Source of the DNA: Arcobacter sp. CECT 8986
GTDB taxonomy: Bacteria; Campylobacterota; Campylobacteria; Campylobacterales; Arcobacteraceae
NCBI RefSeq assembly: GCF_004116725.1
Contig: NZ_PDKG01000002.1
Location: forward strand, 248,001-312,000
Direction: 5' to 3'
DNA length: 64,000 nucleotides
In this document: positions 20,413 to 37,659 of the stretch, one piece after another
Layout: every line of letters starts with the position of its first letter
How positions within the stretch are numbered: position 1 is the stretch's first letter
Program-made: the position numbers and the translations under genes
The notes under the pieces: model-generated
Told to the model about the DNA's origin: nothing
Databases searched by the model: none
Seen by the model: the letters and a program-made list of their open reading frames with translations, nothing else

Positions 20413-21009
20413 TTGTCAACTAAAGAGTTAAAAAAAAATAATATTATTGAAAATGCACTAAAACTTTTTTCTACAAAAGGTTTTTATAATACTACAATTC
20501 CTGATATTGCAAAAGCAATGAGAATGAGTGTAGGTAATATGTATAACTATTTTGCATCAAAAGAAGAGTTAGCAAAATATGCAATAAAATACTCAACAAA
20601 TATCCTTGCAGAGCAATTAAGAAAAATTAATCATATGGATATATCATCAAAAGAAAAAATATTTTTATTTACTAAAGTATATTTAGAAAATGTAAAAAAT
20701 TCTCCAGAAGTAATAGAGTATTTTTTAAGAGTATATTTATCAAATAGAGAAGTTTTTGCACAGGGCTGTGAAGGTTTTTTATGCGTAAGTGAATTTGTTA
20801 CTGAAGTGATGATTTTCCTTGATGAAGGAGCTTCAAAAGGTGAATTTAGAGAACAAGATTTTTTCTCTGCATTTTCAATGATAATGGGATGTTTAGGTGG
20901 TTTTGCTTTTTTAAGTGGTGAAAAAGTATTAGATAAAGATTTATTAGAGTATTCTGATGGAATCGCTGAAAATATATTTAGAGCATTAAAAAGCGATGAG
21001 ACAACATAA
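20413..21009 (+). CDS. TetR/AcrR-family transcriptional regulator
   Basis: 198 residues starting at a TTG preceded by AAAGGT. The N-terminal 60 residues are a TetR helix-turn-helix: NIIENALKLFSTKGFYNTTIPDIAKAMRMSVGNMYNYFASKEELAKY. The C-terminal ~130 residues form the usual all-helical ligand/dimer domain, whose ligand is not predictable. Its last 14 nt overlap the start of the hydrogenase small-subunit gene, so regulator and hydrogenase are co-transcribed. This suggests it controls hydrogenase genes or itself. Operator-like palindromes lie upstream of hydA1 and hydA2. Most TetR proteins are repressors released by a small molecule; an acyl-CoA ligand is a speculative option given those operators. 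Confidence 0.85.
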   Translation: MSTKELKKNNIIENALKLFSTKGFYNTTIPDIAKAMRMSVGNMYNYFASKEELAKYAIKYSTNILAEQLRKINHMDISSKEKIFLFTKVYLENVKNSPEVIEYFLRVYLSNREVFAQGCEGFLCVSEFVTEVMIFLDEGASKGEFREQDFFSAFSMIMGCLGGFAFLSGEKVLDKDLLEYSDGIAENIFRALKSDETT

Positions 21010-21886
21010 ACCTAAGATTGTTTGGCTACAAGCAATAACATGTAATGGTAATACCCATTCACTTTTAAGTTCAAATCCTTCTCGATTTGAACTTTTATTA
21101 AACTCATTTAATTTCTTTTATCATCCCTCAATTACAACTGAAAATAGTTTAGAAGATGTCCTAAATTTAAAAGAGATAGACTTTTTACTTTTAGAAGGTG
21201 CAGTTACATCAAATAAACAGTTTTATCAAATATCTGATAATAGTATAAATGACTTATTAAAAAAAGTTTCAAAAAAAGCAAAATATATTATTAGTGTTGG
21301 TTCTTGTGCTTCTTATGGGGGAATTCATGCTAAATTTGAACAAAATAGTGATATTAAAGGTTTGCAAGATATTTTAAATGTGTGGGAATTAAAAAAACTA
21401 AAACAACCTATAATAAATCTTACTGGTTGTCCTGTACATCCTGAGTGGATTCTTCAAACACTATTTACTTTAAAAGAGTTTGGAAAAATAGGTTTAGATA
21501 TGCAAGGAAGACCTAAAGATATATATTTTGGTCTTGCACATCATGGTTGTACAAGAAATGAGTATTTTGAGTGGAAAATTGAAGCTAAGTCTTTTGGTCA
21601 TAAAGAGGGTTGCCTTTTTTATGAAGAGGGTTGTCGTGGTCCAATGACTCATAGTAATTGTAATAGAATTTTATGGAATGATGTAAATACAAAAACAAGA
21701 GCAGGTATGCCTTGTATTGGTTGTACTGAATTTGACTTTCCTAGAGATAATATGCTTGAAACAAAGAAAAATATAGGTATTCCTTCTGAAGTTCCATTGG
21801 GAATAAACAAAAGAGCTTACTTAACTATTACTGGTGTTGCAAAAACATTTAAAATAGATAGATTAAATAAAAAACTAATTGAGTAA
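20996..21886 (+). CDS. Cytoplasmic [NiFe] hydrogenase small subunit, group 2-like (HupS/HupU type)
   Basis: 296 residues with no Tat signal, so the enzyme is cytoplasmic. Iron-sulfur ligands are in place: C16 in ITCNGNTHS, then GSCASYGG and TGCPVHP (proximal), H and C in LAHHGCTRN with CLFYEEGCRGP (distal), and SNC plus CIGC (medial). The first motif reads CNGN rather than CxxC; Asn at this place is also known in cyanobacterial HupS (group 2a). The partner large subunit starts 2 nt downstream. Group 2 enzymes include uptake (2a), H2-sensing (2b) and less known Aquificota-type (2d) forms; I cannot decide which. The start overlaps the tetR gene. Confidence 0.85.
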   Translation: MRQHKPKIVWLQAITCNGNTHSLLSSNPSRFELLLNSFNFFYHPSITTENSLEDVLNLKEIDFLLLEGAVTSNKQFYQISDNSINDLLKKVSKKAKYIISVGSCASYGGIHAKFEQNSDIKGLQDILNVWELKKLKQPIINLTGCPVHPEWILQTLFTLKEFGKIGLDMQGRPKDIYFGLAHHGCTRNEYFEWKIEAKSFGHKEGCLFYEEGCRGPMTHSNCNRILWNDVNTKTRAGMPCIGCTEFDFPRDNMLETKKNIGIPSEVPLGINKRAYLTITGVAKTFKIDRLNKKLIE

Positions 21887-21888
21887 AA

Positions 21889-23244
21889 ATGAAGACATTA
21901 AATATTGTAGAAAGAATTGAAGGTGAAGCAAAATTAGTTTGCAATTGGGAAGATGAAAAGATAACAGATGCCCAAATTCAGTTTTTAAATTTTAGAGGTT
22001 TTGAATATATTTTAAAAGATAAACCAGCATTGGATGCTTTAGTATATACTCCTAGAATATGTGGGATATGTGGACAAGCTCATCTTAAAGCAACAGCCCA
22101 AGCATTAGAAAATATTTATGAAAGTGTAAATGAGCCTTTATATATAACTGATAAGGCAAAACTTTTAAGAGAGATTGGATTAAATATTGAAATAATTGAT
22201 TCTCATATAAAGTGGTTTTATCTATTTATAATGCCAGATATTGCTAAGTTATCAAAAGATGAAAAATATTTGAAATATGAAGCTATAAAAGGTGAATCTT
22301 GGAGAAAAGGTACTTATGCAGCAAGTGAGAGTATAAAAGCATTAGCCGTATTTGCAGGGCAATGGCCACACACTTCATATATGCTACCTGGTGGAGTGAT
22401 GAGTGACCCTACATTATTTGATATTATGACTATGCAAAACTATATGGACCAAACACTTCATTTTATTGAAAAAGAACTTATTGGTGATGAAATAGAAAAT
22501 TATTTTAATTTCAATAATATATCTGATTTTGATAGTTTAAATGGAGCATTAAGTGATTTTATTAAATTATGCTTAGAAAATGATTTTCATAATTTAGGTA
22601 AAAGTTATAACTCTCATATCGTTTTATCAAAAAATTATCTATTTGAAAGTGGACGAATAGAGATTAAAAATAGACAAAGCGTAGATTTATCTTTAGTAAA
22701 AGAAGAAGATATTAATAGTTTTAAAATGAATGAGCCAAGAAGAGATAATGAATATACATGGGCAAAAACAGCTTTATATAATGACAAGCCTTATGAAACT
22801 GGCCCTTTATCACGAGCTTTAATATCAAATAGAAAACTAATAAAAAATATGCACAAAGAGTATAATGATTCAGTTCTAACAAGAGTCATGGCACGAATGG
22901 ATGAATTAATATATTTAGTGTTTATTACAAAAAAATTAATAAAACAAGTTGATATTTCTCAAGACTCTTTTATACCTCCAAAACTCTCTTTAAAAGATAT
23001 TGGAACTGCAACAGGTATTTCAGCAGTAGAAGCTGCAAGAGGTTCTTTACTTCATAAAGTAACTTTAGAAAATTCAATAATCAAAAATTATGATGTAATA
23101 ACTCCTTCTGTTTGGAATTTAGGTCCAGGAATAAATGAAAAATATGGAATTGCACAAAAAGCAATTATTGGAGCAAATAGTCTAGAAAAGGCATATATAA
23201 TACTACGAAGTTTTGATGTTTGTTCTGTTTGTACGACACATTAA
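21889..23244 (+). CDS. Cytoplasmic [NiFe] hydrogenase large subunit without C-terminal extension
   Basis: 451 residues, short for a large subunit. The L1 motif is RGFE plus RICGICGQAH (C58, C61) and the L2 motif is SFDVCSVCTTH, and the protein stops exactly at that final His. Most large subunits have a ~15-25 residue tail removed by a protease after Ni insertion; H2-sensing HupV/HoxC proteins lack it, as here. The usual DPC of L2 is DVC, a further variation. All four Ni-binding cysteines are present, so an active site can form, and no dedicated protease is needed. No HoxJ-type histidine kinase is nearby; the upstream partner is a TetR regulator. It may be a sensor or a low-activity uptake enzyme. 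Confidence 0.85.
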   Translation: MKTLNIVERIEGEAKLVCNWEDEKITDAQIQFLNFRGFEYILKDKPALDALVYTPRICGICGQAHLKATAQALENIYESVNEPLYITDKAKLLREIGLNIEIIDSHIKWFYLFIMPDIAKLSKDEKYLKYEAIKGESWRKGTYAASESIKALAVFAGQWPHTSYMLPGGVMSDPTLFDIMTMQNYMDQTLHFIEKELIGDEIENYFNFNNISDFDSLNGALSDFIKLCLENDFHNLGKSYNSHIVLSKNYLFESGRIEIKNRQSVDLSLVKEEDINSFKMNEPRRDNEYTWAKTALYNDKPYETGPLSRALISNRKLIKNMHKEYNDSVLTRVMARMDELIYLVFITKKLIKQVDISQDSFIPPKLSLKDIGTATGISAVEAARGSLLHKVTLENSIIKNYDVITPSVWNLGPGINEKYGIAQKAIIGANSLEKAYIILRSFDVCSVCTTH

Positions 23245-23497: not shown

Positions 23498-24733
23498 ATG
23501 GTTGATTCTCAAGATATGGTAAAGAAAGTTTTTACCCAAAAATCTGCTAGAATTGATACAAACAAAGGTGAAAATTACTACAACAACCTTTTTGAAAAAG
23601 CAAAACAAAGATTATCTACATTAAAAAAACAAGCACCACTTAAAGATATTGATATGGTGGATGTTATTGAAACAGAAGGTATAAATAGACGGGATTTTAT
23701 GAAATGGGTAAGTGGAACTACTGCAACACTTATGCTTCCTCCTATGTTTGAACCTTTAGTTGCTGAGGCTACTGAACTTATGAATAGAGTTCCAGTTGTA
23801 TGGATTGAACTTCAAGACTGTGCTGGTAACTCTGAAGCTCTATTAAGAAGTGCTTCTCCTACAGTTGATGATTTACTTTTTGATGTACTAAGTTTGGAGT
23901 TTCATGAAACTTTACAAGCTGCTGCTGGTCATGATGCTGATAGACAACTTGAAGATGCAGTTGAACATTTTAAAGGTCAATATTTATTATTTGTAGAAGG
24001 TGCAATTCCTATGGCAAATAACGGTATGTACGGAACAATTGGTGCAAGTGGTGAAACTTTCCATGAACACTTAATGAGAATGTCAAAAGATGCAGCTGCT
24101 GTTATTGCTGTTGGTACATGTGCTACTTTTGGAGGTATTCCAGCTGCTGCGCCTAACCCAACTGGTGCAGTTGGAGTTATGGATTTAGTAAAAGGTAAGC
24201 CACTTATTAATATTCCTGCATGTCCTGCAAATCCAGCAAATATGGTTGGAGTTATTTTACATTATATTTTAACTGGACAAGTTCCTGAATTAGATTCATT
24301 ATTAAGACCTAAATTTGCATTTGGATATAGAATTCATGATAACTGTGAGAGAAGAGCTCACTTTGATGCTGGTGAATTTGTTGAAGAGTTTGGTGATGAT
24401 GGAGCAAAAAATAACTGGTGTTTATATAAAGTAGGTTGTAAAGGTCCTATGACTTTTAATAACTGTTCTATTATTAGATATAACGAAGGTACAAACTGGC
24501 CAGTTGGTGTTGGTAGAGGATGTATTGGATGTAGTGAACCTGATTTTTGGGATAAATATGCTTATCAAAGACCAATGGCAGGTGCAAATATAAAAGCTCC
24601 AACAGGTGGTGTTGAAAAAACTGTTGATGAATTCGGTTTAGGATTATTAACAGCAACAGCAGTAGGTATTGGAGTACATGCAGTTGCAAGTGCAGTTGCA
24701 GGAAAAAAATCAGAACATAACGAGGAAGAATAG
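23498..24733 (+). CDS. hydA: Membrane-bound uptake [NiFe] hydrogenase small subunit, first copy
   Basis: 411 residues. After a 60-residue cytoplasmic leader comes a Tat signal, NRRDFMKWVSG (R64, R65), so the folded heterodimer is exported with HydB. Proximal-cluster ligands should be C108, residue 111, GTCA and the Cys of PACPANP; residue 111 is Asn (motif DCAGNSEALLR), where the next operon's copy has CTGCSES. Distal (H and C of IHDNCERR, then CLYKVGCKGP) and medial (NNC, GCIGC) ligands are normal. A C-terminal hydrophobic helix (GLGLLTATAVGIGVHAV) anchors it to HydC. It passes electrons from the Ni-Fe site to the quinone pool. The altered proximal site should shift that cluster's redox potential or oxygen response. 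A good ribosome binding site precedes the ATG. Confidence 0.93.
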   Translation: MVDSQDMVKKVFTQKSARIDTNKGENYYNNLFEKAKQRLSTLKKQAPLKDIDMVDVIETEGINRRDFMKWVSGTTATLMLPPMFEPLVAEATELMNRVPVVWIELQDCAGNSEALLRSASPTVDDLLFDVLSLEFHETLQAAAGHDADRQLEDAVEHFKGQYLLFVEGAIPMANNGMYGTIGASGETFHEHLMRMSKDAAAVIAVGTCATFGGIPAAAPNPTGAVGVMDLVKGKPLINIPACPANPANMVGVILHYILTGQVPELDSLLRPKFAFGYRIHDNCERRAHFDAGEFVEEFGDDGAKNNWCLYKVGCKGPMTFNNCSIIRYNEGTNWPVGVGRGCIGCSEPDFWDKYAYQRPMAGANIKAPTGGVEKTVDEFGLGLLTATAVGIGVHAVASAVAGKKSEHNEEE

Positions 24734-24735
24734 AT

Positions 24736-26475
24736 ATGGCAAAAAAACATTTAGTAATTGATCCAATAACAAGAATCGAAGGACATCTTAGAATTGAAGC
24801 AATAATTGATGAAAATAATGTTGTTACAGATGCATATGCTTCTTCTACTATGTTCAGAGGTATTGAAGAGATTTTAAGAGGTAGAGACCCAAGAGATTGT
24901 GGTTTATTAGCAATGAGAATTTGTGGTGTTTGTACAGGTACACACTATCAAAGAAGTATTGAGGCAGTTGAGCATGCATTTGGTGTAACAATTCCTAAAA
25001 ATGCAAGATTAGTAAGAAACTTAATGCAAGGTGCACTTTATGTACATGACCACGTAGTTCACTTCTATCATTTACATGCACTTGATTGGGTTGATATCAC
25101 AGAAGCTTTAAAAGCAGACCCTAAAAAAGCAGTTGCAGAAGCTACAAAATGGGCAAGTGTATCAGGACAACTTCCTTTTAATGCAAGTGAATCTGTATAT
25201 AAACAAGTACAAGATAGAGTTACAAAATATGTGAAACAAGGTAGACTTGGAATATTCGGAAATGCATACTGGGGTTCAAAAGGATTTAAACTAACTCCTG
25301 AACAAAACTTAATTGGACTTTCTCACTATCTTGATGCATTAGAAATTCAAAGAGAAATTGGGAAAATGATGGCAATTTTTGGAGGGAAAAATCCACATCC
25401 ACAATCATTAGTTGTTGGTGGTGTAACTTGTGTTCAAGATATTAAAAACCCTGCAAGAATAGCAAAATTCAAACAAATACTTAAATTAGCTAGAAAATTC
25501 TGTAAAGAAGCATATTTACCAGATGTTTATATGGCTGGAACAATGTATGCAGATGAAGCTTTAGAAGGAATTGGTGGAGGTCTTGGAAACTATATGTGTT
25601 ATGGTGATTTCAATTTAGATGACTTACCATTTTATGATTCTAAAAAACTTTTCCCATCAGGAATTGTTAAAAATAGAGATTTAACAAAAGTTTATGAATT
25701 AGACCAAACAAAAATTACTGAAGATGTAACTCATGCATGGTATGAAGGTAGTACAAACTTACATCCATTTGATGGTGAGACTAAACCTAACTATACAGGT
25801 TTTGGTAAAAAAGAGAACAACATTGCATATTTAGATACTAAAAATAAATATTCATGGATTAAATCTCCACTATATAATGATGAAAGAATGGAAGTAGGGC
25901 CATTAGCAAGAATGATTGTAGGTGTTGCAAAAGGTGATGAAAGAATTACTAAATATGTTACAACATTTTTGAAAAATGGTAATTTACCAACAAAAGTATT
26001 ATTCTCAACAGTTGGTAGAACAGCAGGACGTGCAATTGAGTCAGAAATGATGGCTGATATTATGATGGAATGGTGTGATGAATTAGCTGCAAATGTTGCA
26101 AATGGTGATTTATCTACTTGGACAGAATTTGATTTTGATAAAGTATCTGTTGATACTCAAGGTTATGGTATGGCAGAAGCTCCAAGAGGAAGTTTAGGTC
26201 ACTGGGTAAAAATCAAAGATGGTAAAGTGGTAAACTATCAAGCAGTTGTTCCTTCAACTTGGAATGCAGCACCAAGAGATTATAAAGGTAGATTAGGTGC
26301 ATATGAATCTTCATTAATTGGTACAAAAGTAGCAAATGCAGACCAACCTTTAGAAATTTTAAGAACTGTACATAGTTTTGACCCTTGTATTGCTTGTGCT
26401 GTACATATTATTGATGCAAAAGGTAAAGAGTTAGGTGTTTATAAAATAGATCCAACAGGAGGATGCCGTGCCTAA
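24736..26475 (+). CDS. hydB: Uptake [NiFe] hydrogenase large subunit, first copy
   Basis: 579 residues. L1 is RGIE plus RICGVCTGTHYQRS (C63, C66) and L2 is DPCIACAVH (C551, C554, H557); these four cysteines bind the Ni-Fe(CN)2CO centre. A 22-residue tail after H557 would be removed by the protease HydD once nickel is inserted. No signal peptide: it is carried out by the Tat signal of HydA. It oxidises H2 on the periplasmic face. The gene starts 2 nt after hydA1 stops, with GAGGAAG as ribosome binding site, and overlaps hydC1 by 8 nt. It is about as long as the second copy and clearly paralogous throughout. Confidence 0.95.
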   Translation: MAKKHLVIDPITRIEGHLRIEAIIDENNVVTDAYASSTMFRGIEEILRGRDPRDCGLLAMRICGVCTGTHYQRSIEAVEHAFGVTIPKNARLVRNLMQGALYVHDHVVHFYHLHALDWVDITEALKADPKKAVAEATKWASVSGQLPFNASESVYKQVQDRVTKYVKQGRLGIFGNAYWGSKGFKLTPEQNLIGLSHYLDALEIQREIGKMMAIFGGKNPHPQSLVVGGVTCVQDIKNPARIAKFKQILKLARKFCKEAYLPDVYMAGTMYADEALEGIGGGLGNYMCYGDFNLDDLPFYDSKKLFPSGIVKNRDLTKVYELDQTKITEDVTHAWYEGSTNLHPFDGETKPNYTGFGKKENNIAYLDTKNKYSWIKSPLYNDERMEVGPLARMIVGVAKGDERITKYVTTFLKNGNLPTKVLFSTVGRTAGRAIESEMMADIMMEWCDELAANVANGDLSTWTEFDFDKVSVDTQGYGMAEAPRGSLGHWVKIKDGKVVNYQAVVPSTWNAAPRDYKGRLGAYESSLIGTKVANADQPLEILRTVHSFDPCIACAVHIIDAKGKELGVYKIDPTGGCRA

Positions 26476-27175
26476 ATTTAAAAGGGTTGAGAGAATGACT
26501 CCAATCATGCGAACGATTCACTGGATGAATGCGATTTGTATGGTTGTAGCAGTTGCAACCGGTTTATATATTGGGTACCCATATTACCAAACATTAATAG
26601 CAGACCCTGCTGTAAATAAATATGTAATGGCTTGGAATAGATGGGCTCACTTTATAGTTGCAATTATATTTGATGTAACTGCAATTTTAATTGGTTATTT
26701 ATACCTATTTTCAAATTTTGAAAAACCATACAAAAAAATACTTCCTACAAAGAAAAACTTTATAGAGTTTTGTGAAGTATTTTTTAACTTAATTACATTT
26801 AATAGAAGAAAAAAATTTGATTCTTCTCATAGTGATAGTTATAACATAATGTTTTTTACACTATTTCATGTGTTATTAGTATTTATGTTATTAACAGGAT
26901 TACAACTTTATGTACATGGTTTAGCATCAGGACATAGTTCTATTGGTGATTGGTGGCCATGGGTATTACACTTAAGTACTGATTGGACTTTAAGTGTATT
27001 TGGCGGAAATATGGGAGTTAGAATTGCTCACCATACAACTATGTATCTATTAATTATGTGGGTTATGTCACATATTTATTATCAAATCTGGAGAACTATT
27101 TTCTGGCAAGAGGGTGATATTGCTATTGTATTTAGTGGATACAAGTTCGCAAGAGATAGAAAAAAAGATAAATAA
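26468..27175 (+). CDS. hydC: Hydrogenase cytochrome b subunit, first copy
   Basis: 235 residues from a GTG start, supported by AGGAGG five bases upstream and by overlap with the hydB1 end. Four membrane segments carry heme-ligand histidines in TIHWMN, LFHVLL, AHHTTMYLL and SHIYYQ, the pattern of Ni/Fe-hydrogenase b-type cytochromes. It anchors the exported HydAB dimer and passes electrons to menaquinone. Compared with the second copy it has a longer loop between the second and third segments. A short gap with two hairpins separates it from hydD1. Confidence 0.9.
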   Translation: MPKFKRVERMTPIMRTIHWMNAICMVVAVATGLYIGYPYYQTLIADPAVNKYVMAWNRWAHFIVAIIFDVTAILIGYLYLFSNFEKPYKKILPTKKNFIEFCEVFFNLITFNRRKKFDSSHSDSYNIMFFTLFHVLLVFMLLTGLQLYVHGLASGHSSIGDWWPWVLHLSTDWTLSVFGGNMGVRIAHHTTMYLLIMWVMSHIYYQIWRTIFWQEGDIAIVFSGYKFARDRKKDK

Positions 27176-27259: not shown

Positions 27260-27844
27260 ATGAGAAATATTATTATAGGAGTTGGAAATCTACTTTTCAA
27301 AGATGAGGGAGTAGGAATTTATGCTGCTAAATATTTAGAAGAAAATTATGATTTTGATGATTCTTTAGAAATTATAGATGGAGGTACTTTAGGATTTAAA
27401 CTAATGAGTTATTTCCAAGAGTATGATAATGTAATTATTTTAGATACTGTATCAATTGAAGATGAAGCAGGAAGTATTTTTAGATTACCATCAGATGTAT
27501 TATTAGGTTTAGGTAATTATAGAAAAACTGCCCATGAAGTTGAAATAGTTGAGATGCTAGAGATTTGTTCTGTTCTTGATAAACATGCAGAAGTTACTAT
27601 TTTAGGAATAATTCCAGAAGATATTGTAGCTGTTGAAATTGGATTAACAAAAAAAATAGAAGATAAATTTGAAGATTATATAAACACTGCATTAAAAGAA
27701 GTAGAATCAGTTGGTGTAAAAATTACTAAAAAAGATAATAAAACAGTAAAAGATATTGCACAAGGATTAATCGGAAGTTACAATGGTGAACATTTAAGTA
27801 GAGTTCCAAATGAAGAGGATATTAGACATGCAAATGTATTATAA
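27260..27844 (+). CDS. hydD: Hydrogenase maturation endopeptidase, first copy
   Basis: 194 residues, HyaD/HybD family. The signature IIIGVGNLLFKDEGVG holds the first nickel-sensing Glu; DGGTLG and KTAHEVE hold the likely Asp and His ligands. The enzyme checks for nickel in HydB and cuts off its C-terminal tail. The C-terminal ~40 residues beyond the core are variable. Its end overlaps the start of hydE1. It is presumably matched to HydB1; the second operon has its own copy. Confidence 0.92.
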   Translation: MRNIIIGVGNLLFKDEGVGIYAAKYLEENYDFDDSLEIIDGGTLGFKLMSYFQEYDNVIILDTVSIEDEAGSIFRLPSDVLLGLGNYRKTAHEVEIVEMLEICSVLDKHAEVTILGIIPEDIVAVEIGLTKKIEDKFEDYINTALKEVESVGVKITKKDNKTVKDIAQGLIGSYNGEHLSRVPNEEDIRHANVL

Positions 27845-29354
27845 AATAAATTTTGTTTTGACAAATGAATACTATATAAATATTATAAATGAACAAATAA
27901 AACAAGACAATATAAATATACAAATAAAAAAATATGATAAGTTTTTTATATTAGATATAAATGATGAAGAAGAAAAAATTACTACATTTTTTCAAAATTT
28001 AGAGAAAAGTTTACCTTTATCTATCTATTTAAAAGATGCACAATTTATTCAAGAGCTTGATAAAGATAAAGAAGAAATTGAGTTTGATAACTTAAAACAA
28101 AATGTATCCTTACCAAATAATAAAATAATAGAGTTAATAAATGCAGATTTATCTGTTTATGATGAATTAATACAAAAGTTAAATAAAAAAGAGACTATTG
28201 AGTTTGAAACATCAAATGGAATTAAAAAATTTGCTTTACCAAATAAAGAGAATAGAGAGTTACTAGAAAAAGAAAATGAAGTAAATCTTTTTATTGCAAA
28301 TACAAATAACTTAACATCTTTAGTTGAAATCTCTACTAAAGATATGCATAATCTATGTAGTATTGAAAGACCTTTGGTTAAATTAAAATTTAACTTTTTA
28401 CAAAATAAAGAGCAACAATACTCAGCTATATCTTTTATAAATGCAAAATTGCCAGATGATGAGCAAACATTTAAATTTGCACTAGCTTTAAAAAATAAAG
28501 GAATAGATTTTTTAATTTATAGTGACTTTGATGTAAAACAAAAAGATATAAAAGTATCTTATTTTAAAGATGAAAATATTGTTATTAGTGGAGATAAAGC
28601 AATTTTTCCTACATATGATATTCAAGATAAAAAAGTTTATAACTCTTCAAAAGAGTTATATGATGAAAATGGTGGAGTTCTTAAAACAATAATAAAAAAA
28701 GAGAATAAAAGAACAGAAAACTCTTTGGGTGTATATTTTTCTTATAATAGTAGTGAAAGTAAAATAAGTTTAAATACACCAACAAAAGGTTTAAAAGATA
28801 TTATTTATATTCCTAATATAGAAAATAGTATTAGTTCTTGTATGGAAGATATCGCTTCAATGGATGAAAATACTGCAAGATTAGTAGATAATTATAAAAA
28901 TAAGTTTCCTCAATATTTTGAAAAAGAGCTTCCATCTAATACAAATGGCTTTGTTTCTATTTTAAATTTTGTTGCAGTAATGCTTGGAATGAAAGATTAT
29001 AAAGAGTTTGAATCTTATGCTTTATCTGCAAATTTAAAGAGTGGATTACAAGTTGATATGAAGATAGAAAAACTAAATGGAAAGAATTTTTTAGATTATA
29101 GAAAGATTGCACACTCAATTTTTAGCTATAAAATTGCGGATGTTGAAAATTCTTTATTGGCATATTCTTTCTATGAAAGTCTTAGTGAATTCTTAAAAAC
29201 TGTTGTAGAAGAGGTGAATAGTGACATCAAAGTGAGGAATATAATTTTTTGTGGGAATATGTTTTCTAACTCAATATTACTACAGAAGGCTGAAAAAGAG
29301 CTCTCTAGAGAATTTAACCCAATTCTGTCTAAAAAATATACACTTGATTACTAA
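27828..29354 (+). CDS. hydE: HydE, HypF-related accessory protein, first copy (zinc finger lost)
   Basis: About 508 residues. I start at ATG 27828, seven or so bases after AGAGGA; ATGs at 27810 and 27834 are also in frame. HydE is known from the hydABCDE operons of Wolinella and Helicobacter as needed for hydrogenase activity, role unclear. This copy is weakly similar to the second HydE over its length. The C-terminal segment VRNIIFCGNMFSNSILLQKAEKEL aligns with the HypF segment DVVLSGGVFQNKTLLEKVIKNL. The four zinc-finger cysteines kept in the second HydE are absent here. So it looks like a degenerate HypF relative, perhaps a chaperone or scaffold rather than an enzyme. Cytoplasmic; no signal peptide. 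Confidence 0.75.
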   Translation: MQMYYKINFVLTNEYYINIINEQIKQDNINIQIKKYDKFFILDINDEEEKITTFFQNLEKSLPLSIYLKDAQFIQELDKDKEEIEFDNLKQNVSLPNNKIIELINADLSVYDELIQKLNKKETIEFETSNGIKKFALPNKENRELLEKENEVNLFIANTNNLTSLVEISTKDMHNLCSIERPLVKLKFNFLQNKEQQYSAISFINAKLPDDEQTFKFALALKNKGIDFLIYSDFDVKQKDIKVSYFKDENIVISGDKAIFPTYDIQDKKVYNSSKELYDENGGVLKTIIKKENKRTENSLGVYFSYNSSESKISLNTPTKGLKDIIYIPNIENSISSCMEDIASMDENTARLVDNYKNKFPQYFEKELPSNTNGFVSILNFVAVMLGMKDYKEFESYALSANLKSGLQVDMKIEKLNGKNFLDYRKIAHSIFSYKIADVENSLLAYSFYESLSEFLKTVVEEVNSDIKVRNIIFCGNMFSNSILLQKAEKELSREFNPILSKKYTLDY

Positions 29355-29544: not shown

Positions 29545-29577
29545 AGCTTTTGAAGTTGTATGAGCATGAGGGAAGAA

Positions 29578-29619
29578 ATGCTTTTGAAGAAAGTGATGAT
29601 TCATTTATTTTTTCTTTAA
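29578..29619 (+). CDS. Possible 13-codon leader ORF before hydA2
   Basis: ATG at 29578 follows a strong GAGGGAAG and encodes MLLKKVMIHLFFL then TAA. It is in a different frame from hydA2 and stops 17 nt before the TTG at 29637. It could be a leader peptide coupling translation to hydA2, or chance. No conservation can be tested here. Confidence 0.25.
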   Translation: MLLKKVMIHLFFL

Positions 29620-29636
29620 TTTTTAAAGGAAGAATT

Positions 29637-30797
29637 TTGAAAACTGATTTATTTAATAAGTTATCAAAAAGATTGTCGAGTTTAGAAAAACTTCCAAAAC
29701 TTGATGATAAAAAAACAATCCCATCAATTTTAGAAGAAAAAGGTTTTTCTAGAAGAGATTTTATGAAATGGGCTGGTGCTATGACTGCAATGTTAGCACT
29801 ACCTGCAAACTTCACGCCACTAGTGGCTAAAGCTGCAGAACTTAGTGACAGACTACCAATTGTATGGTTACATATGGCAGAATGTACTGGTTGTTCAGAA
29901 TCTCTTTTAAGAACTGATGCTCCAACTATTGATTCTTTAATCTTTGATCATATCTCTTTAGAATATCATGAAACATTAATGGCTGCTGCTGGATGGCAAG
30001 CAGAACATAACTTAGAACATGCTATTGAAAAATACAAAGGTAAATATATCTTAATGGTAGAAGGTGGTATCCCTTCTGGTGAAAGTTCATTCTACTTAAC
30101 TATTGGTGGACATGGTAAAACTGGTGAAGAAAATGCAAAAGAAGCAAGTAAAAATGCTGCTGCAATTTTTGCTATTGGTACATGTTCTGCATTTGGTGGA
30201 GTTCAAGCTGCTATTCCAAATCCAACTGGTGCTGTTGCATTATCTAAAATAACAAACAAAACTGTTATTAATGTTCCTGGTTGTCCACCAAGTGAAAAAA
30301 ATATTGTTGGTACATTATTACATTACTTATTATATGGTGCGTTACCATCTTTAGATGCATATAACAGACCAAAATGGGCATATGGACTTAGAATTCACGA
30401 TTTATGTGAAAGAAGAGGTCACTTTGATGCAGGTGAATTCGTAGAAGAATTCGGTGATGAAGGTGCAAAAAAAGGTTACTGTTTATATAAAGTAGGTTGT
30501 AAAGGACCTTATACTTTTAATAACTGTGGTAAAAATAGATTTAACTCTCATACTTCTTGGCCAATTCAAGCTGGACATGGATGTATTGGATGTAGTGAGC
30601 CAGACTTCTGGGATACAATGGGACCATTTGAAGAGCCTGTAGCTGATAGACTTTATAACACTGTATTTGGTGGTTTAGGTGCTGATGCAACTGCTGATAA
30701 AGTAGGTATAGGTTTATTAACTGTAACTGGTGTAGGGATTGCAGCACACGCAGCAATTTCAAAATTTAAAAATCCAAAAGATGGCGATGAGGAGTAG
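29637..30797 (+). CDS. hydA: Membrane-bound uptake [NiFe] hydrogenase small subunit, second copy
   Basis: 386 residues from the TTG at 29637, chosen because AAAGGAAG precedes it and the product then begins MKTDLFNKLSKRL, like the family. The frame stays open to a TTG at 29550 that has no ribosome binding site. Tat signal SRRDFMKWAG (R39, R40). Proximal ligands are complete: CTGCSES (C83, C86), GTCSAFGG, PGCPP; distal IHDLCERR and CLYKVGCKGP; medial NNC and GCIGC. No supernumerary cysteines, so it is the standard (not the oxygen-tolerant [4Fe-3S]) type. C-terminal anchor helix GIGLLTVTGVGIAAHAAI. It closely resembles the Wolinella/Campylobacter HydA. hydB2 follows after 3 nt. Confidence 0.93.
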   Translation: MKTDLFNKLSKRLSSLEKLPKLDDKKTIPSILEEKGFSRRDFMKWAGAMTAMLALPANFTPLVAKAAELSDRLPIVWLHMAECTGCSESLLRTDAPTIDSLIFDHISLEYHETLMAAAGWQAEHNLEHAIEKYKGKYILMVEGGIPSGESSFYLTIGGHGKTGEENAKEASKNAAAIFAIGTCSAFGGVQAAIPNPTGAVALSKITNKTVINVPGCPPSEKNIVGTLLHYLLYGALPSLDAYNRPKWAYGLRIHDLCERRGHFDAGEFVEEFGDEGAKKGYCLYKVGCKGPYTFNNCGKNRFNSHTSWPIQAGHGCIGCSEPDFWDTMGPFEEPVADRLYNTVFGGLGADATADKVGIGLLTVTGVGIAAHAAISKFKNPKDGDEE

Positions 30798-30800
30798 AAA

Positions 30801-32531
30801 ATGGCAACTAAAAGAGTTATTGTAGACCCAATTACAAGAATTGAAGGGCATCTTAGAATTGAGGTTGAAGTTGATGAAAATAATGTAATTCAAAATGCTT
30901 TCTCTACTTCGACATTATGGAGAGGATTAGAAACTATTGTAAAAAATAGAGATCCAAGAGATGCAGGTTTTTTAATGCAAAGAATTTGTGGTGTTTGTAC
31001 TTTCTCTCACTATAGAGCAGGTATTGAAGCTGTTGAAGATGCTTTAGGAATTGAGCCTCCATTAAATGCAAAATTAACTAGAGCACTTATGAATCAAGCA
31101 TTATTTATGCATGACCACCCAGTTCACTTCTATCACTTACATGGATTAGATTGGGTTGATGTTGTTTCTGCTTTAAAAGCAAATCCAGCATTAGCTGCAA
31201 AAGAAGCATTTAAATATACTAAATATCCAGTTGCTGCAGGTGAAGGTGATCTTAAAAAAGTTCAAGATAAAGTTAAAATTTTTGTTGAAAAAGGACAACT
31301 TGGCCCTTTTGCAAATGCTTATTGGGGACATAAATCATTTAAATTAACTCCTGAGCAAAACTTAATTGCTTTATCTCACTATTTAAAAGCACTTGAAATC
31401 CAAAGAGATATGGCTAAAATGACAGCTATTTTTGGAGGTAAACAACCACATCCACAAAGTTTAACTGTTGGTGGTGTTACTTGTATTATGGATTTATTAG
31501 ATCCATCAAGAATGGGTGAGTTCTTAACTTTATTCAAAAAAGGTCAAGATTTCGTAAATAATGCTTATTATGCAGATGTTTTAATGGCTGCAAAAGCTTA
31601 TAAAAATGATCCTTCAGTTACTGAAAAAAGAGGTGTTATGAACTTTATGGCTCATAATACAATTAGATTAAACAGAACTGAGTATTTATTTGATACTGGT
31701 ATTATTATGAATGGAGATATTTCTAAAGTATATCCAATCAATGAAGATTTAATTACTGAAGAAGCAACTCACTCTTGGTATAAAGATAATCAACCATTAC
31801 ATCCATATGATGGTAAAACAAATCCAAACTATACTGGTTTTGTAGATAGAGAAACTGTTGGACCAGATGGTAAAATGATTCACTCTAAATCTGTTGATGA
31901 AAAAAATAAATATACTTGGATTAAATCACCAAGATATGATGGTAAACCAATGGAAGTTGGACCATTAGCTTGTATGTTAGTTTCTTATGCAAATGGAAAT
32001 GAAAGAGTTAAAAAAGTAGTTGATAACTTCTTAAAAGAAGCTGGATTACCAGTTGGTGCATTATTCACAACTTTAGGAAGAACAGCAGCTAGAATGTTAC
32101 AAACTAAAGTTATCGTTGATAATGGTTTAGAAACATTTAATTCTTTAATTGAAAACCTAAAAGTAGATAAAGAGACTTATACTTCTTATAAAATTGATAA
32201 AAATAAAGAGTATAAAGGTAGATTTATCGGTGATGTTCCAAGAGGAATGTTATCTCACTGGATTAGAATTAAAAATGGTGTTGTTGAAAACTATCAAGCT
32301 GTTGTTCCATCAACATGGAATGCTGGACCAAAAGATGCAAACGGACTAATTGGCCCATATGAATCAAATCTAATTGGAATGAAAGTTGAAGATATCTCTC
32401 AACCATTAGAAATTATTAGAGTAATTCACAGTTTCGACCCTTGTATTGCTTGTGCAGTACATGTGATGGACACTAAAGGTAATGATTTAAGTGTTCATAA
32501 AGTAGACCCAATTTATGGGGCAAGCTGCTAG
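30801..32531 (+). CDS. hydB: Uptake [NiFe] hydrogenase large subunit, second copy
   Basis: 576 residues. L1 is RICGVCTFSHYRAG and L2 DPCIACAVH, followed by a 22-residue tail (VMDTKGNDLSV...) to be cut by HydD2. It contains VDPITRIEGHLRIEVEVD at the N terminus and KSFKLTPEQNLIALSHYLKALEIQRDMAKM in the centre (quoted in parts only for position). It is the catalytic H2-oxidising subunit, exported with HydA2. AGGAG lies just before the ATG. It is paralogous to HydB1 with many conserved blocks, but the region after residue 250 differs. Confidence 0.95.
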   Translation: MATKRVIVDPITRIEGHLRIEVEVDENNVIQNAFSTSTLWRGLETIVKNRDPRDAGFLMQRICGVCTFSHYRAGIEAVEDALGIEPPLNAKLTRALMNQALFMHDHPVHFYHLHGLDWVDVVSALKANPALAAKEAFKYTKYPVAAGEGDLKKVQDKVKIFVEKGQLGPFANAYWGHKSFKLTPEQNLIALSHYLKALEIQRDMAKMTAIFGGKQPHPQSLTVGGVTCIMDLLDPSRMGEFLTLFKKGQDFVNNAYYADVLMAAKAYKNDPSVTEKRGVMNFMAHNTIRLNRTEYLFDTGIIMNGDISKVYPINEDLITEEATHSWYKDNQPLHPYDGKTNPNYTGFVDRETVGPDGKMIHSKSVDEKNKYTWIKSPRYDGKPMEVGPLACMLVSYANGNERVKKVVDNFLKEAGLPVGALFTTLGRTAARMLQTKVIVDNGLETFNSLIENLKVDKETYTSYKIDKNKEYKGRFIGDVPRGMLSHWIRIKNGVVENYQAVVPSTWNAGPKDANGLIGPYESNLIGMKVEDISQPLEIIRVIHSFDPCIACAVHVMDTKGNDLSVHKVDPIYGASC

Positions 32532-32540
32532 GAGCGTATT

Positions 32541-33215
32541 ATGATTAAAAAACATTATGAATTTTCATTTTGGCTTAGAGTTACGCACTGGATTAGAGTA
32601 ATTGCAATTATTATCTTAACAGCTAGTGGTTTTTATATTGCATATCCATTTATAGCGCCTTCTCACAATGGTGGGGAGCCTATAAATTTCTTAAATGCAC
32701 TTATGAGATCATGGCATATTATTTTTGGATTTTTATTAATTGCAGTAACTGTTGGAAAATTTTATTTATTCTTTTTTGATAAACAAAGTGGAGTAGAAAG
32801 AAACTCATTTTGGGATTTTATTAGCCCAACAGTATGGATTAAACAAATAAAATATTATTTATTAGTAGGTAAACACCCTCATGGAAAAGGTGTTTATAAT
32901 CCTTTACAATTTATGGCGTATGTTGGAGTTTATGCATCAATTTTATTGATTTCATTAACAGGATTAATCCTTTATGTTCATGTATATCATGATGGATTAG
33001 GTGGAGCTTTATATGGTGTATTAAGACCAGTTGAAGCTATGCTTGGTGGATTAGCGTGGGTTAGAGAGTTACATCACATTGCAATGTGGATTTTTATAAT
33101 TTTCTTACCAATTCATATTTACTTAGCAATTTTTAACTCTGTATATGGAAAAGCTGGAGCAATGGATTCTATCTTCAGTGGATATAGATGGATAAAAGAG
33201 AAAGATAAAAAATAG
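32541..33215 (+). CDS. hydC: Hydrogenase cytochrome b subunit, second copy
   Basis: 224 residues with four membrane segments. Heme-ligand histidines are in VTHWIRV, RSWHIIFGF, LHHIAMWIF and PIHIYLAIFNSVYGKAG, the last matching the conserved C-terminal motif of the HupC/HyaC/HydC family. It receives electrons from the exported HydA and reduces menaquinone. AGGAG overlaps the hydB2 stop, and the hydD2 ATG directly follows the stop. Confidence 0.92.
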   Translation: MIKKHYEFSFWLRVTHWIRVIAIIILTASGFYIAYPFIAPSHNGGEPINFLNALMRSWHIIFGFLLIAVTVGKFYLFFFDKQSGVERNSFWDFISPTVWIKQIKYYLLVGKHPHGKGVYNPLQFMAYVGVYASILLISLTGLILYVHVYHDGLGGALYGVLRPVEAMLGGLAWVRELHHIAMWIFIIFLPIHIYLAIFNSVYGKAGAMDSIFSGYRWIKEKDKK

Positions 33216-33779
33216 ATGAATATTTTAATACTAGGCATAGGTAATATCCTTTTTCAAGATGAGGGTATGGGCGCACATTTTGTACACTACTTAGATGAAA
33301 AGTATGAGTTTAATAGTGATAAAAATAGCGTAAGCATAGTAGATGGTGGAACTTTAGCCCAACGGCTAATTCCACTTATCGTAAAGTTTGATAAATTAAT
33401 TGTAGTTGATTGTATTGATGCATTAGATTCAAAACCTGGTGATGTATATTTCTTTGATTTTGATAATATGCCAAACACTATTGATTGGCAAGGAAGTGCA
33501 CACGAAGTAGAGATGTTACAAACATTAAATATGGTGCAAATGAATGGAGATTTACCTCAAACACAAGTATTAGGAATAATACCAAAAAGAGTAGCAGATG
33601 ATACTACTTTTGAGTTAAGTGAAGAGATAATAAATGCAATACCAACAATGGAACATACAATTATTGATTATCTAAAACAATTAGATGTTGATGTAAAAGT
33701 AATAAATGAAGATACTACTATTACACAAATAGCACAGGTTTCATACAAAAGAGAGATAAAAAATGATCCTAAAATTTAG
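33216..33779 (+). CDS. hydD: Hydrogenase maturation endopeptidase, second copy
   Basis: 187 residues. LGIGNILFQDEGMGAH, DGGTLAQRL and GSAHEVEML mark the HyaD-type protease with its Glu/Asp/His nickel-sensing residues. It should process HydB2. Its 3' end overlaps hydE2 by 17 nt. It diverges from HydD1 mainly in the C-terminal 50 residues. Confidence 0.92.
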   Translation: MNILILGIGNILFQDEGMGAHFVHYLDEKYEFNSDKNSVSIVDGGTLAQRLIPLIVKFDKLIVVDCIDALDSKPGDVYFFDFDNMPNTIDWQGSAHEVEMLQTLNMVQMNGDLPQTQVLGIIPKRVADDTTFELSEEIINAIPTMEHTIIDYLKQLDVDVKVINEDTTITQIAQVSYKREIKNDPKI

Positions 33780-35412
33780 TTTTGACTATAACTCAAATAA
33801 CAATGCCCTTATATACTTTTTACAAAATATTGTTAGTAAAACAAAATTAGAAAATAAGATTGTAAGACAAAAAGATATTGTTTTATATGTTGAAGGTAAT
33901 GAAGAGGAATTAATCTCTTTTTCTGATGAACTTGCTGCTACTCTTCCAATGTCAATTTTTCTAAAAAATAATACAGCAGAAGTTGTTCCAGAAATTCCAC
34001 AAGTAGATAGTATAAAAGTAGATAAAAACAAAGAGTTTGCTTTTTGTGCTTCATGCTTAAAACAAATAGAAGATAGTAGTAATGAAGATTTTTATAATCC
34101 TTTTATCTCTTGTTCTATTTGTGGTACAACTTGTGATGTAAAAAAACTGATTTTATTAGAAGGTAATGAAGAGATATCATATAACTCAAATAAAGAGTTA
34201 TTTGAAAAATTAGCCTCTTTAATAAATGAAGATAAAAAAGTAAAAATAAAGACTAATTCTGGTGAGTTTGTTTTTAAAAAATTATCAAAAACAGACAAAG
34301 AAGTAAATCTATTATCGACAAATTTAGTAAATATTTCAAAAGTTTTAGTTGCAAATAAAAAAGAGATTGTAGCTTTAGCAAGCGTTGAAAAACCATCACT
34401 TGATTTAAGAGTAAACGAAGTATTTAAAATGACAGATACTTTAAATCAAGAGTATGTAAACGTAAGATATGTAGATGATTTGATTTTATATCTATTATCT
34501 AAAGAGTTAGAAAATTATAGTATTGATTTTTTAATTTATAGTAAAGATGAAGATTTTGATTATGAATTAACTTATGAAGGTGATACTAAAAATTTAGATA
34601 TTATGAAAATTAAAATAGTAGAAGATAATACTATTATTTTAAATTCTAATTCATATGATAAATCACTAAATACTATTTATTCAAAATTTGATGATAAATC
34701 AAAAGCACATTTTATGGTACTTTTACAAGAGTATAATTTCTATAATAAAAGTGTTTTAAACTTCTATTCTTCGACAAAACATAATGATAATATTTGTTTA
34801 TATTCAAAAGATATAGAAGGCTTTTTAGATATTGTTAATTATAAATTACCAAAATCAATAAAAGAGATTTTTGATACTTTACAAAAAGATGAAACATCAA
34901 GCAGACTTCTAAATAACTATAAAGAAAAATATCCTGAGATTTATGAAAATGCATTAAATTGTGATATTTCTATGTTAAAAGATAAAAATATCTATTCATT
35001 ATGGAAAATTGTTGCAGTTGTTTTAGGTTTTAGCTCAAAAATTGAAGAAGAAAATATAGTTTTAAATAAAGCAATTGAGTGCCTTTTAGAAAAAGGTCCT
35101 AGAATTGATTATAAACTAAAAGATTCTGAAAAGATGTTTAATAAAGAGTTTTTATTACATAAATTATTTCAATCAGGAATGAGTTTTAAACTTGCTGGTG
35201 TTGATGATAATACTTTATGTTTAGGTTATATTGAGAGTTTTGCACACTATATTGCAAAATTAGTAGATGATGTACACTCTGAAGTACCACTTGATGGTGT
35301 AAGTTTAACAGGTGATATATTCACATATGACTTAATTTCAAAACTAGTACATAAAAGTATTACAAAAAACTTTAAAATATACTATAATAAGGACTTCGTA
35401 ATACAAAAATAA
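33763..35412 (+). CDS. hydE: HydE, HypF-related accessory protein, second copy (zinc finger kept)
   Basis: 549 residues. A four-cysteine finger C95-x2-C98-x18-C117-x2-C120 has exactly the spacing of the first HypF finger in the adjacent hypF (C108-x2-C111-x18-C130-x2-C133). Following it, FEKLASLINEDKKVKIKTNSG parallels HypF IDKLASLINNGEIVAIKGIGG, and near the C terminus LDGVSLTGDIFTYDLISKLV parallels HypF LDVVLSGGVFQNKTLLEKVI. The N-terminal 90 residues would then correspond to the acylphosphatase domain, without its GxVQGVGFR motif. So HydE appears derived from HypF by loss of catalytic motifs. It probably helps Fe(CN)2CO assembly or HydB folding; this is inferred. It overlaps hydD2 and sits 9 nt before hypF. 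Confidence 0.78.
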   Translation: MILKFSFDYNSNNNALIYFLQNIVSKTKLENKIVRQKDIVLYVEGNEEELISFSDELAATLPMSIFLKNNTAEVVPEIPQVDSIKVDKNKEFAFCASCLKQIEDSSNEDFYNPFISCSICGTTCDVKKLILLEGNEEISYNSNKELFEKLASLINEDKKVKIKTNSGEFVFKKLSKTDKEVNLLSTNLVNISKVLVANKKEIVALASVEKPSLDLRVNEVFKMTDTLNQEYVNVRYVDDLILYLLSKELENYSIDFLIYSKDEDFDYELTYEGDTKNLDIMKIKIVEDNTIILNSNSYDKSLNTIYSKFDDKSKAHFMVLLQEYNFYNKSVLNFYSSTKHNDNICLYSKDIEGFLDIVNYKLPKSIKEIFDTLQKDETSSRLLNNYKEKYPEIYENALNCDISMLKDKNIYSLWKIVAVVLGFSSKIEEENIVLNKAIECLLEKGPRIDYKLKDSEKMFNKEFLLHKLFQSGMSFKLAGVDDNTLCLGYIESFAHYIAKLVDDVHSEVPLDGVSLTGDIFTYDLISKLVHKSITKNFKIYYNKDFVIQK

Positions 35413-35421
35413 GAAGTTTTG

Positions 35422-37659
35422 ATGGTAATTGGAAAGTTAGTAAAAGTTAAAGGTATAGTTCAAGGAGTAGGATTTAGACCTTATGTATTTAACCTATGTG
35501 ATAATTATAAATTAAGAGGTTGGGTTAATAATGATGATGAAGGTGTAAATATTGTCTTAGAAGGTGACGAAGTTACTATAAATGAGTTTATAAAAGAGCT
35601 CGAAGAGTTTCCTCCTCCTTTAGCTAAAATTGATTCAGTTGAAATATTTTCAAAAGAGCTTGAATATTTTCAAGATTTTAAAATATTAGAAAGTGAAAAT
35701 CACTCAAATAAATCTACAATAATTTCTCCAGATATTGCAATTTGTCAAGATTGTATAGATGATATAAATGATGAAAATAATTTTAGACATAATTATGCAT
35801 TAACAAATTGTACAAATTGTGGGCCAAGATACTCAATTATTAAAACAGTTCCATATGACAGAGTAAATACTTCAATGTCAAATTTTGAATTATGCAGTAG
35901 TTGCTATGAAGAGTACATAAATCCTAAAAATAGAAGATATCACGCGCAACCTGTATGTTGTGAAAAATGTGGGCCTAAAATAGAGCTATATAATAATTTT
36001 AATAAAAAATTATGTGATGGTGTTAGTGCAATTGATAAATTAGCCTCTTTGATAAACAATGGAGAAATAGTAGCAATAAAAGGAATAGGTGGATTTCATT
36101 TAGTTTGTGATGCAACTATTGATGATGCTGTTAATAATTTAAGAAAAAGAAAAAACAGACCTACTAAACCTTATGCAGTTATGTTTAAAGATATAAATCA
36201 AATAAATGAAGTTGCTACTTTAACACAAAAAGAAGAAGAAATAATCTCTTCAAAAGAGAAACCAATTACTTTAGTTAAGAAAAAACAACAATCAAAACTT
36301 AGCTCTTTTGTTGCTCCAAATACTGATAGATTAGGTTGTTTTTTACCTTATACTCCACTACATATTCTTCTATTTAAAAAATTAAATAATCCAATTATTG
36401 CAACAAGTGCAAATTTAAAAGATGAGCCAATTATTAGACATAAAGATGAGTTAATTGTAAAACTTGGTGATGTGGCAGATTTTGTATTAGATTTTAATAG
36501 AGAGATTATAAATGCTGTTGATGATAGTGTTGTTCAAGTGGTAAATGATGATATTTTTAAATTTAGAAATGCAAGGGGTTATTCACCAAGCGTTATAAAA
36601 CTAAAAAATAAGCAAAGTAAAAAAATATTAGCACTTGGCGCAAATCAAAAATCAACTATAAGTATTGCATTTGGTGATAATATAATAGTATCACCTCATA
36701 TTGGAGATTTAAACTCTATTGATTCAATTGAGTATTTTATGAGAACTGTAAAAACTTTCAAAAGGTTTTATGATTTTGAAGCAGATATTATTGTATGTGA
36801 TAAGCATCCCTCATATGAAAGTACAAAATGGGCAAATCAATTAAAAAATAAGCAAGTTGTAAAAATCCAACACCATTATGCACATATCTTAAGCGCAATG
36901 GCAGAGTATAAATTAGAAAGAGATGTTTTAGGTATTTCATTTGATGGAACAGGTTATGGCGATGATGGTAATATTTGGGGTGGAGAAGTTTTTGTAGCTT
37001 CAAAAAAAGAGTATAAAAGAGTAAAACATTTTAAATATTTTAAACTTCTTGGTGGAGAAAAAGCTGTAAAAGAGCCAAAAAGAGTAGCATTATCTTTGCT
37101 TTTTGATACTTTTACTTTAGAAGAGTTAGAACAAAAACATTTATCAACTTTAAATCAATTTTCACTTCAAGAATTAAAAATGCTAAATACAATGTGGGAA
37201 AAAGGATTAAATGCACCACAAACAAGTTCAGTTGGAAGAATTTTTGATGCTATTGCTTCATTAGCTAATATTTTACATATTCAAACTTATGAGGGTGAAA
37301 CTGGATTATTAATTGAGCAATATTATAGTGAAAATATAACACAAATATTTGATTATGTTATTGATGATTATATTATTGATATTAGACCAATGATAAAAGC
37401 AATTGTAGAAGATGAGTATGACAAAAAAACAATTTGTTCAAAATTTATAAATACAATGGCAAAAATAATTATGGATATTTCAGATGAATATGATGATTTA
37501 GATGTTGTTTTATCTGGTGGGGTATTTCAAAACAAAACATTATTAGAAAAAGTAATAAAAAATTTAAAACAAAAGAATAAGGAAGTTTTTTATTCAAAAA
37601 TAGTTCCTGTTAATGATGGTGGAATTTCTGTTGGACAAATTTACTCTCAAGTAGAATAA
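35422..37659 (+). CDS. hypF: Carbamoyltransferase HypF
   Basis: 745 residues from ATG 35422 (a TTG one codon earlier is also in frame). Domains in order: acylphosphatase with KGIVQGVGFRPYVFNLC; two zinc fingers (C108/C111/C130/C133 and C158/C161/C180/C183, each Cx2Cx18Cx2C); YrdC-like domain with AIKGIGGFHLVCDA and KRKNRPTKPYAVM; Kae1-like C-terminal domain with HHYAHILSAMAEY, GISFDGTGYGDDGNIWGGE and VLSGGVFQN. HypF makes carbamoyl-adenylate from carbamoyl phosphate and loads it on HypE, where it becomes the cyanide ligand. It is at the end of the second hyd operon, away from the other hyp genes. Confidence 0.95.
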   Translation: MVIGKLVKVKGIVQGVGFRPYVFNLCDNYKLRGWVNNDDEGVNIVLEGDEVTINEFIKELEEFPPPLAKIDSVEIFSKELEYFQDFKILESENHSNKSTIISPDIAICQDCIDDINDENNFRHNYALTNCTNCGPRYSIIKTVPYDRVNTSMSNFELCSSCYEEYINPKNRRYHAQPVCCEKCGPKIELYNNFNKKLCDGVSAIDKLASLINNGEIVAIKGIGGFHLVCDATIDDAVNNLRKRKNRPTKPYAVMFKDINQINEVATLTQKEEEIISSKEKPITLVKKKQQSKLSSFVAPNTDRLGCFLPYTPLHILLFKKLNNPIIATSANLKDEPIIRHKDELIVKLGDVADFVLDFNREIINAVDDSVVQVVNDDIFKFRNARGYSPSVIKLKNKQSKKILALGANQKSTISIAFGDNIIVSPHIGDLNSIDSIEYFMRTVKTFKRFYDFEADIIVCDKHPSYESTKWANQLKNKQVVKIQHHYAHILSAMAEYKLERDVLGISFDGTGYGDDGNIWGGEVFVASKKEYKRVKHFKYFKLLGGEKAVKEPKRVALSLLFDTFTLEELEQKHLSTLNQFSLQELKMLNTMWEKGLNAPQTSSVGRIFDAIASLANILHIQTYEGETGLLIEQYYSENITQIFDYVIDDYIIDIRPMIKAIVEDEYDKKTICSKFINTMAKIIMDISDEYDDLDVVLSGGVFQNKTLLEKVIKNLKQKNKEVFYSKIVPVNDGGISVGQIYSQVE

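Follow-up and report, generated by a model that had tools for sequence, protein, structure and literature searches.

A fixed asparagine at a proximal-cluster ligand position in a group 1b-like hydrogenase lineage of Campylobacterota

Introduction

What does it mean for an exported [NiFe] hydrogenase to carry an asparagine where a cysteine is expected to hold the proximal iron-sulfur cluster? The question is raised by a window of 64,000 nucleotides of the genome of Arcobacter sp. CECT 8986 (NZ_PDKG01000002.1, positions 248,001 to 312,000), which encodes two adjacent hydrogenase sets. Their small subunits, HydA1 and HydA2, are 53% identical. A preliminary description of the window, made from the sequence alone, had reported CAGN in HydA1 and CTGC in HydA2, and translation confirms both. 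We analyzed the HydA1 site, its conservation, its phylogenetic setting and its genomic neighbourhood (Table 1).

Results

The proximal site of HydA1

The CAGN motif occupies residues 108-111 of HydA1, and N111 is encoded by an AAC codon. It had been proposed that this position is a ligand of the proximal cluster, and alignment with solved structures bears this out. C108 and N111 fall on the first two cysteines of the proximal-cluster CTGC of D. vulgaris (1h2a) and A. vinosum (3myr), and the four proximal-ligand positions of HydA1 are C108, N111, C208 and C242. All the remaining cluster ligands are present. HydA1 has exactly one cysteine less than HydA2 (9 vs 10); a search for a compensating cysteine found none gained in HydA1, and no clade-specific cysteine was found in HydB1. 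The L1 and L2 motifs of the latter are intact and it has a cleavable C-terminal extension.

HydA1 belongs to the [NiFe] small subunit family (TIGR00391, 451 bits for a cut-off of 179.5) and has the features of group 1 membrane-bound uptake enzymes: a RRDFMK Tat motif, a predicted C-terminal helix and a cytochrome b partner. The Tat export and the cytochrome b link noted in the preliminary description therefore stand, the former on the twin-arginine motif itself and the latter on the PF01292 match of HydC, a cytochrome b561-type protein. About 63 residues, mostly helical by prediction, precede the twin arginines (23498-23686), and the extension of HydA2 is similarly long. An AlphaFold prediction of HydA1 with 22 relatives had a mean pLDDT of 64.8, with values below 50 over residues 277-384, and is too poor near the clusters to speak of geometry; it places a hydrophobic helix at the C-terminus (376-404), in a region of low confidence.

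Table 1. Features of the two hydrogenase sets and of their surroundings (positions in the window).
Feature	Position	Strand	Evidence
CAGN motif: proximal ligand C108 and substituted N111 (AAC, 23828-23830)	23819..23830	+	translation, alignment
HydA1, Tat-exported [NiFe] small subunit, 9 Cys	23498..24733	+	TIGR00391, PF14720, PF01058
HydA1 twin-arginine motif RRDFMK, residues 64-69	23687..23704	+	
TCATFGG, third proximal ligand C208 of HydA1	24116..24136	+	
ACPA, fourth proximal ligand C242 of HydA1; CPA vs CPP in Cys-type group 1	24218..24229	+	
HydA1 distal (H280, C283, C308, C314) and medial (C323, C342, C345) ligands, standard	24335..24532	+	
HydB1 large subunit, intact L1 (RICGVC) and L2 (DPCIAC)	24736..26475	+	
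HydC1, cytochrome b561-type membrane subunit	26468..27175	+	PF01292; TIGR02125 under its cut-off
HyaD/HybD-type maturation endopeptidase	27260..27844	+	TIGR00072 above cut-off
HydE-like accessory protein, weak HypF C-terminal domain	27810..29354	+	PF22521, 37 bits
HydA2 paralogous small subunit, CTGC at residues 112-115 (29883-29894), 10 Cys	29550..30797	+	
HydB2 large subunit	30801..32531	+	
HydC2 cytochrome b subunit	32541..33215	+	PF01292
Group-2 (2d-type, HuaS) small subunit, CNGN at 21041-21052	20996..21886	+	
Group-2 (HuaL) large subunit	21889..23244	+	
TetR-family regulator, immediately preceding the group-2 pair	20413..21009	+	PF00440

The asparagine is fixed among orthologues

After removal of duplicates, the alignment contains 124 distinct HydA1 orthologues from across Campylobacterota, and all 124 have CAGN. 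The asparagine codon is AAC in 84 of them and AAT in 40, and pairwise identity within the class is as low as 53%. The distal and medial ligands are standard, bar one sequence in which two ligand positions are missing from the alignment. Together with the tree support described below, this settles that N111 is conserved as a clade. On this sequence evidence, the asparagine is an old and completely conserved trait, with close precedents.

Three congeneric genomes, with proteins 98, 94 and 92% identical to HydA1, keep the motif. The AAC codon, these genomes and the orthologues agree, which rules out a sequencing error and argues against the possibility, raised earlier, that resequencing would reveal a cysteine. 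A pseudogene can be set aside just as firmly, given the same motif in these sequences and an uninterrupted frame.

We also sampled 397 Campylobacterota genomes, counting classes from the identity table and reading motifs for the fetched subset only. Matches to HydA1 that cover nearly its full length with at least 65% identity occur at 94 places in 91 genomes, which span six families (coded f1, f4, f7, f8, f9 and f11). Most of the remaining group 1 matches belong to a class at 48-58% identity that includes HydA2 and its CTGC, and families such as f2, f3 and f10 have this class only. One divergent CAGN member was found in family f5 (L168).

Two variants of the locus deserve mention. In Arcobacter sp. 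LC1 (L045:11288-12445, the same as L165:8137-9294), one large subunit is preceded by two successive small subunits; the latter of the two reads CAGE, with glutamate at the ligand position, and has lost the Tat motif (GIDDEKFIKW vs GINRRDFMKW). In Sulfurimonas paralvinellae and Sulfurovum mangrovi, the HydA1 cluster is found on plasmids together with TetR-HuaSL and HypF (L205:11415-22872 and L193:8571-21499), with CAGN in both. Since integrase or transposase genes lie near these plasmid-borne clusters, the HydA1 cluster may be mobile.

Phylogeny and other enzymes with asparagine

In a maximum likelihood tree of the small subunits, computed with the motif columns masked, the CAGN class forms a clade (support 100/99) with one CAGE paralogue inside. 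Two other classes are clades as well: the Campylobacterota CTGC class (100/98) and a class of fused proteins (100/100), made of Pyr_redox_2, Fer2_BFD and HydA according to domain profiles. These three classes and a Sulfobacillus plasmid enzyme stand apart from the 1c, 1d and 1e references and from the Desulfovibrio 1b ones.

The asparagine is also found at the proximal site of these group 1 relatives, as CSGN or CTGN in the fused class and as CDGN in the Sulfobacillus enzyme. With sampling beyond Campylobacterota restricted to plasmids and the PDB, grouping all sequences with asparagine or glutamate together, motif masked, gives an AU p of 0.43, and a single origin of the asparagine in group 1 is neither shown nor rejected. 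The large-subunit tree joins the fused asparagine enzymes with the CTGC class (SH-aLRT 86), and therefore asparagine may be ancestral and cysteine regained.

The fused type is known from Hydrogenovibrio XCL-2, Sulfurimonas autotrophica and Sulfurovum AR, where its cluster sites were called unconserved (PMC4744846). The Campylobacterota members that we read have CSGN or CTGN and keep all other ligands, which explains the failed motif match without invoking decay. Such fusions of about 810 residues, with a Pyr_redox_2 domain, a BFD [2Fe-2S] domain and HydA with proximal asparagine, are directly followed by a large subunit in L187:2296-4725, L188:2418-4862, L189:2007-4472 and L051:683-3112. Finally, the group-2 small subunit upstream of HydA1 has an asparagine too (CNGN), which had escaped the preliminary description.

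Comparison with known classes

Asparagine at this ligand is already known from group 2a, from group 1f, where asparagine or aspartate is reported, and from 1b-like enzymes of Methylacidimicrobium (PMC5364354). The preliminary description was right about group 2a and about a non-cysteine ligand in group 1h, which reads CDGD in L204 and L211. It had set against these the Tat-exported, cytochrome-b-linked, group 1-like character of HydA1; this character stands, but asparagine in such an enzyme is not new. In the open-access literature, we found no paper that describes asparagine as fixed throughout the main Campylobacterota clade.

The closest parallel, compared by description, is the 1b-like enzyme of Methylacidimicrobium, which shares with HydA1 the Tat export, the operon cytochrome b and the replacement of the proximal cysteine by asparagine, but comes from the phylum Verrucomicrobia (PMC5364354, PMC6813726). 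HydA2 and the HydABC enzymes of Helicobacter- and Campylobacter-type families have the architecture, Tat signal and cytochrome b of HydA1 and differ in CTGC, in a glutamate before the first cysteine and in CPP at the fourth ligand. The fused enzymes of the XCL-2 type resemble HydA1 in the asparagine (in the Campylobacterota members read) and in tree position, whereas they lack a Tat signal and have a flavin domain in place of cytochrome b. Group 2a (Huc, cyanobacterial HupS) shares the CxGN motif and the CP followed by a non-proline residue, but lacks a Tat signal, has other distal-cluster ligands and belongs to the group-2 branch (PMC6616624), while HydA1 is exported and in the group 1 branch. 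Group 1h has a non-cysteine residue at the same position, but it is aspartate rather than the asparagine of HydA1, identity is low and the branch is separate. Group 1d has CTCC and CAS.GC, with the two extra cysteines of the [4Fe-3S] cluster, where HydA1 has CAGN and TCATFGG.

Relatives of HydA1 have been typed as group 1b by their large subunits in Arcobacter sp. E1/2/3 (PMC5037454) and A. butzleri (PMC12286921; see also PMC10066037). We call HydA1 group 1b-like because its relatives are so typed but the whole CAGN class departs from the four-cysteine proximal motif of group 1b.

Two neighbouring positions co-vary with the asparagine. Aspartate precedes C108 in all 133 group 1 asparagine enzymes, and glutamate is found there in 66 of the 68 cysteine enzymes. 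CPP at the fourth ligand is absent from all 175 asparagine sequences (group 2 included) and present in 66 of the 68 cysteine sequences. Nevertheless, some cysteine-type enzymes also lack the second proline, with CPT, CPV or CPM in group 2b HoxB/HupU, L203 and L190. Since group 2b is among them, the coupling of N111 to the loss of that proline is at best a one-way tendency seen in few lineages. Within Arcobacteraceae, L190:4840-5826 (G067) encodes a small subunit of divergent sequence, with CSGC and CPM, that is distant from the remaining group 1 enzymes.

Discussion

Proposed working of HydA1B1C1

We consider it probable that HydA1B1C1 functions as a respiratory [NiFe] hydrogenase for H2 uptake and belongs to an old group 1b-like lineage with asparagine for the second proximal cysteine. 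The operon is intact. The exported complex would face the periplasm, and its electrons would pass via the cytochrome b into the quinone pool. As to the type of cluster, its electronic effect and its physiological benefit, we infer that a proximal [4Fe-4S] cluster is most likely held by three cysteines and Asn111, or has one iron bound weakly or by solvent beside the asparagine; in either case the cluster, which adjoins the active site, would differ in potential and reactivity, and the enzyme would thereby be tuned for uptake. The site is not the six-cysteine [4Fe-3S] device of oxygen tolerance. Asparagine is a solid clue to the tuning of the enzyme rather than to a new kind of enzyme.

We found no published report of a purified enzyme of the CAGN clade, and the available precedents come from other hydrogenases. 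HupS of Nostoc has a proximal [4Fe-4S] cluster with one asparagine and three cysteines (PMC6616624). In the Alteromonas hydrogenase, the engineered change C81N at the homologous site left H2 evolution in place (PMC4070099).

The proximal cluster of HydA1 could instead be a high-potential [3Fe-4S], with Asn111 near the iron but not binding it; the enzyme would then operate at a higher potential and might be less sensitive to O2. We regard this as unlikely. HucS has the same CxGN motif (ACSGNTMSF, then GCPAHP), shares with HydA1 the non-proline residue after CP, and cryo-EM and EPR show all three of its clusters to be [3Fe-4S] (PMC10017518). Hence, a four-iron proximal cluster cannot be assumed in HydA1. 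The group 1b hydrogenase of Sulfurimonas pluma is strongly expressed in O2-saturated plumes (PMC10066037), which would fit the Huc-like cluster as well if that enzyme has CAGN. However, HupS has the same asparagine and is described as [4Fe-4S], the distal cluster of HydA1 has one histidine and three cysteines, unlike that of group 2 enzymes, and a chain made only of high-potential clusters would be poorly suited to NAD(P)+ reduction in the fused relatives with their Pyr_redox_2 and BFD domains.

Neighbourhood and the role of HydA2

The preliminary description had suggested that the two adjacent hydrogenases cover different H2 levels, redox ranges or oxygen exposures. The genomic context does not favour this. 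Of 50 loci with enough flanking sequence, only 10 have HydA2 in the 8 kb that follow HydA1. Such a tandem is therefore a local arrangement, and the asparagine enzyme commonly occurs without HydA2. The upstream side is more constant: again among loci with enough flank, HuaSL is found within 3.6 kb of HydA1 in 45 of 62 CAGN loci, and a TetR regulator directly precedes HuaSL in 51 of 52, which suggests a regulatory link of the 2d-type HuaSL with H2 metabolism. A separate HydE-like protein with only remote HypF-type domains accompanies each of the two sets (27810-29354 and 33763-35412), and a full-length HypF-like frame (35419-37659) adjoins a HydE-like gene. The HydE-like proteins are possibly set-specific maturation factors.

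A. butzleri has the same layout, with two nearby hynAB sets (51.2% identity) and a group 2d enzyme (PMC12286921), and either of its sets may be the CAGN one. In anoxic nitrate reduction, H2 raises the expression of both sets while huaSL falls (PMC12286921). This argues against a simple division of labour by oxygen, in which HydA1 would serve oxic or low-H2 conditions and HydA2 anoxic, high-H2 ones. We find such a division quite doubtful. The distribution of the two classes over families is compatible with different niches, and the insensitivity of group 1h to O2 has been attributed to its aspartate ligand at the proximal cluster (PMC6813726). Yet the Methylacidimicrobium group 1b enzymes, for which asparagine is reported, allow growth on H2 when O2 is low and are active only below 40 µM O2 (PMC6813726, PMC5364354), and HydA1 lacks the extra cysteines of a [4Fe-3S] cluster. 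Given these data and the induction of both A. butzleri sets under anoxia, oxygen tolerance is not a safe reading of the asparagine.

A further reading, in which the asparagine is a relic, neutral or in decay, and the cluster is badly held, is highly improbable for HydA1, with its intact operon, the same residue in related branches and fixation, other ligands intact, in sequences of down to 53% identity. This had been suggested for the fused enzymes of the XCL-2 type, whose cluster motifs looked unconserved, and XCL-2, which has a fused small subunit, consumed no H2 in tests (PMC4744846).

Implications

The HydA1-type enzyme is a common H2-consuming hydrogenase of free-living members of Campylobacterota, for instance Arcobacter and Sulfurimonas. 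The group 1b label, given by large-subunit typing, merges enzymes of Campylobacterota whose proximal clusters are of two kinds, and the "missing" cluster motifs of the related fused enzymes are a conserved asparagine and not necessarily decay. It is conceivable, albeit rather improbable, that the proximal cluster of the widespread "prototypical, O2-sensitive" group 1b hydrogenase of free-living Campylobacterota is a high-potential [3Fe-4S] like that of Huc, set in a periplasmic enzyme linked to quinones. Large-subunit typing would then have misfiled a class that is high-affinity or O2-robust, and the strong hydrogenase expression in oxygen-saturated plumes would be explained. More generally, if the asparagine cluster alters the potential or the response to O2, the activities inferred from "group 1b" in surveys of vents, sediments and wastewater would need revising, and this would concern a group that ranks among the commonest H2 oxidisers of marine habitats. 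A culturable genus with the asparagine and cysteine types side by side makes a direct comparison possible.
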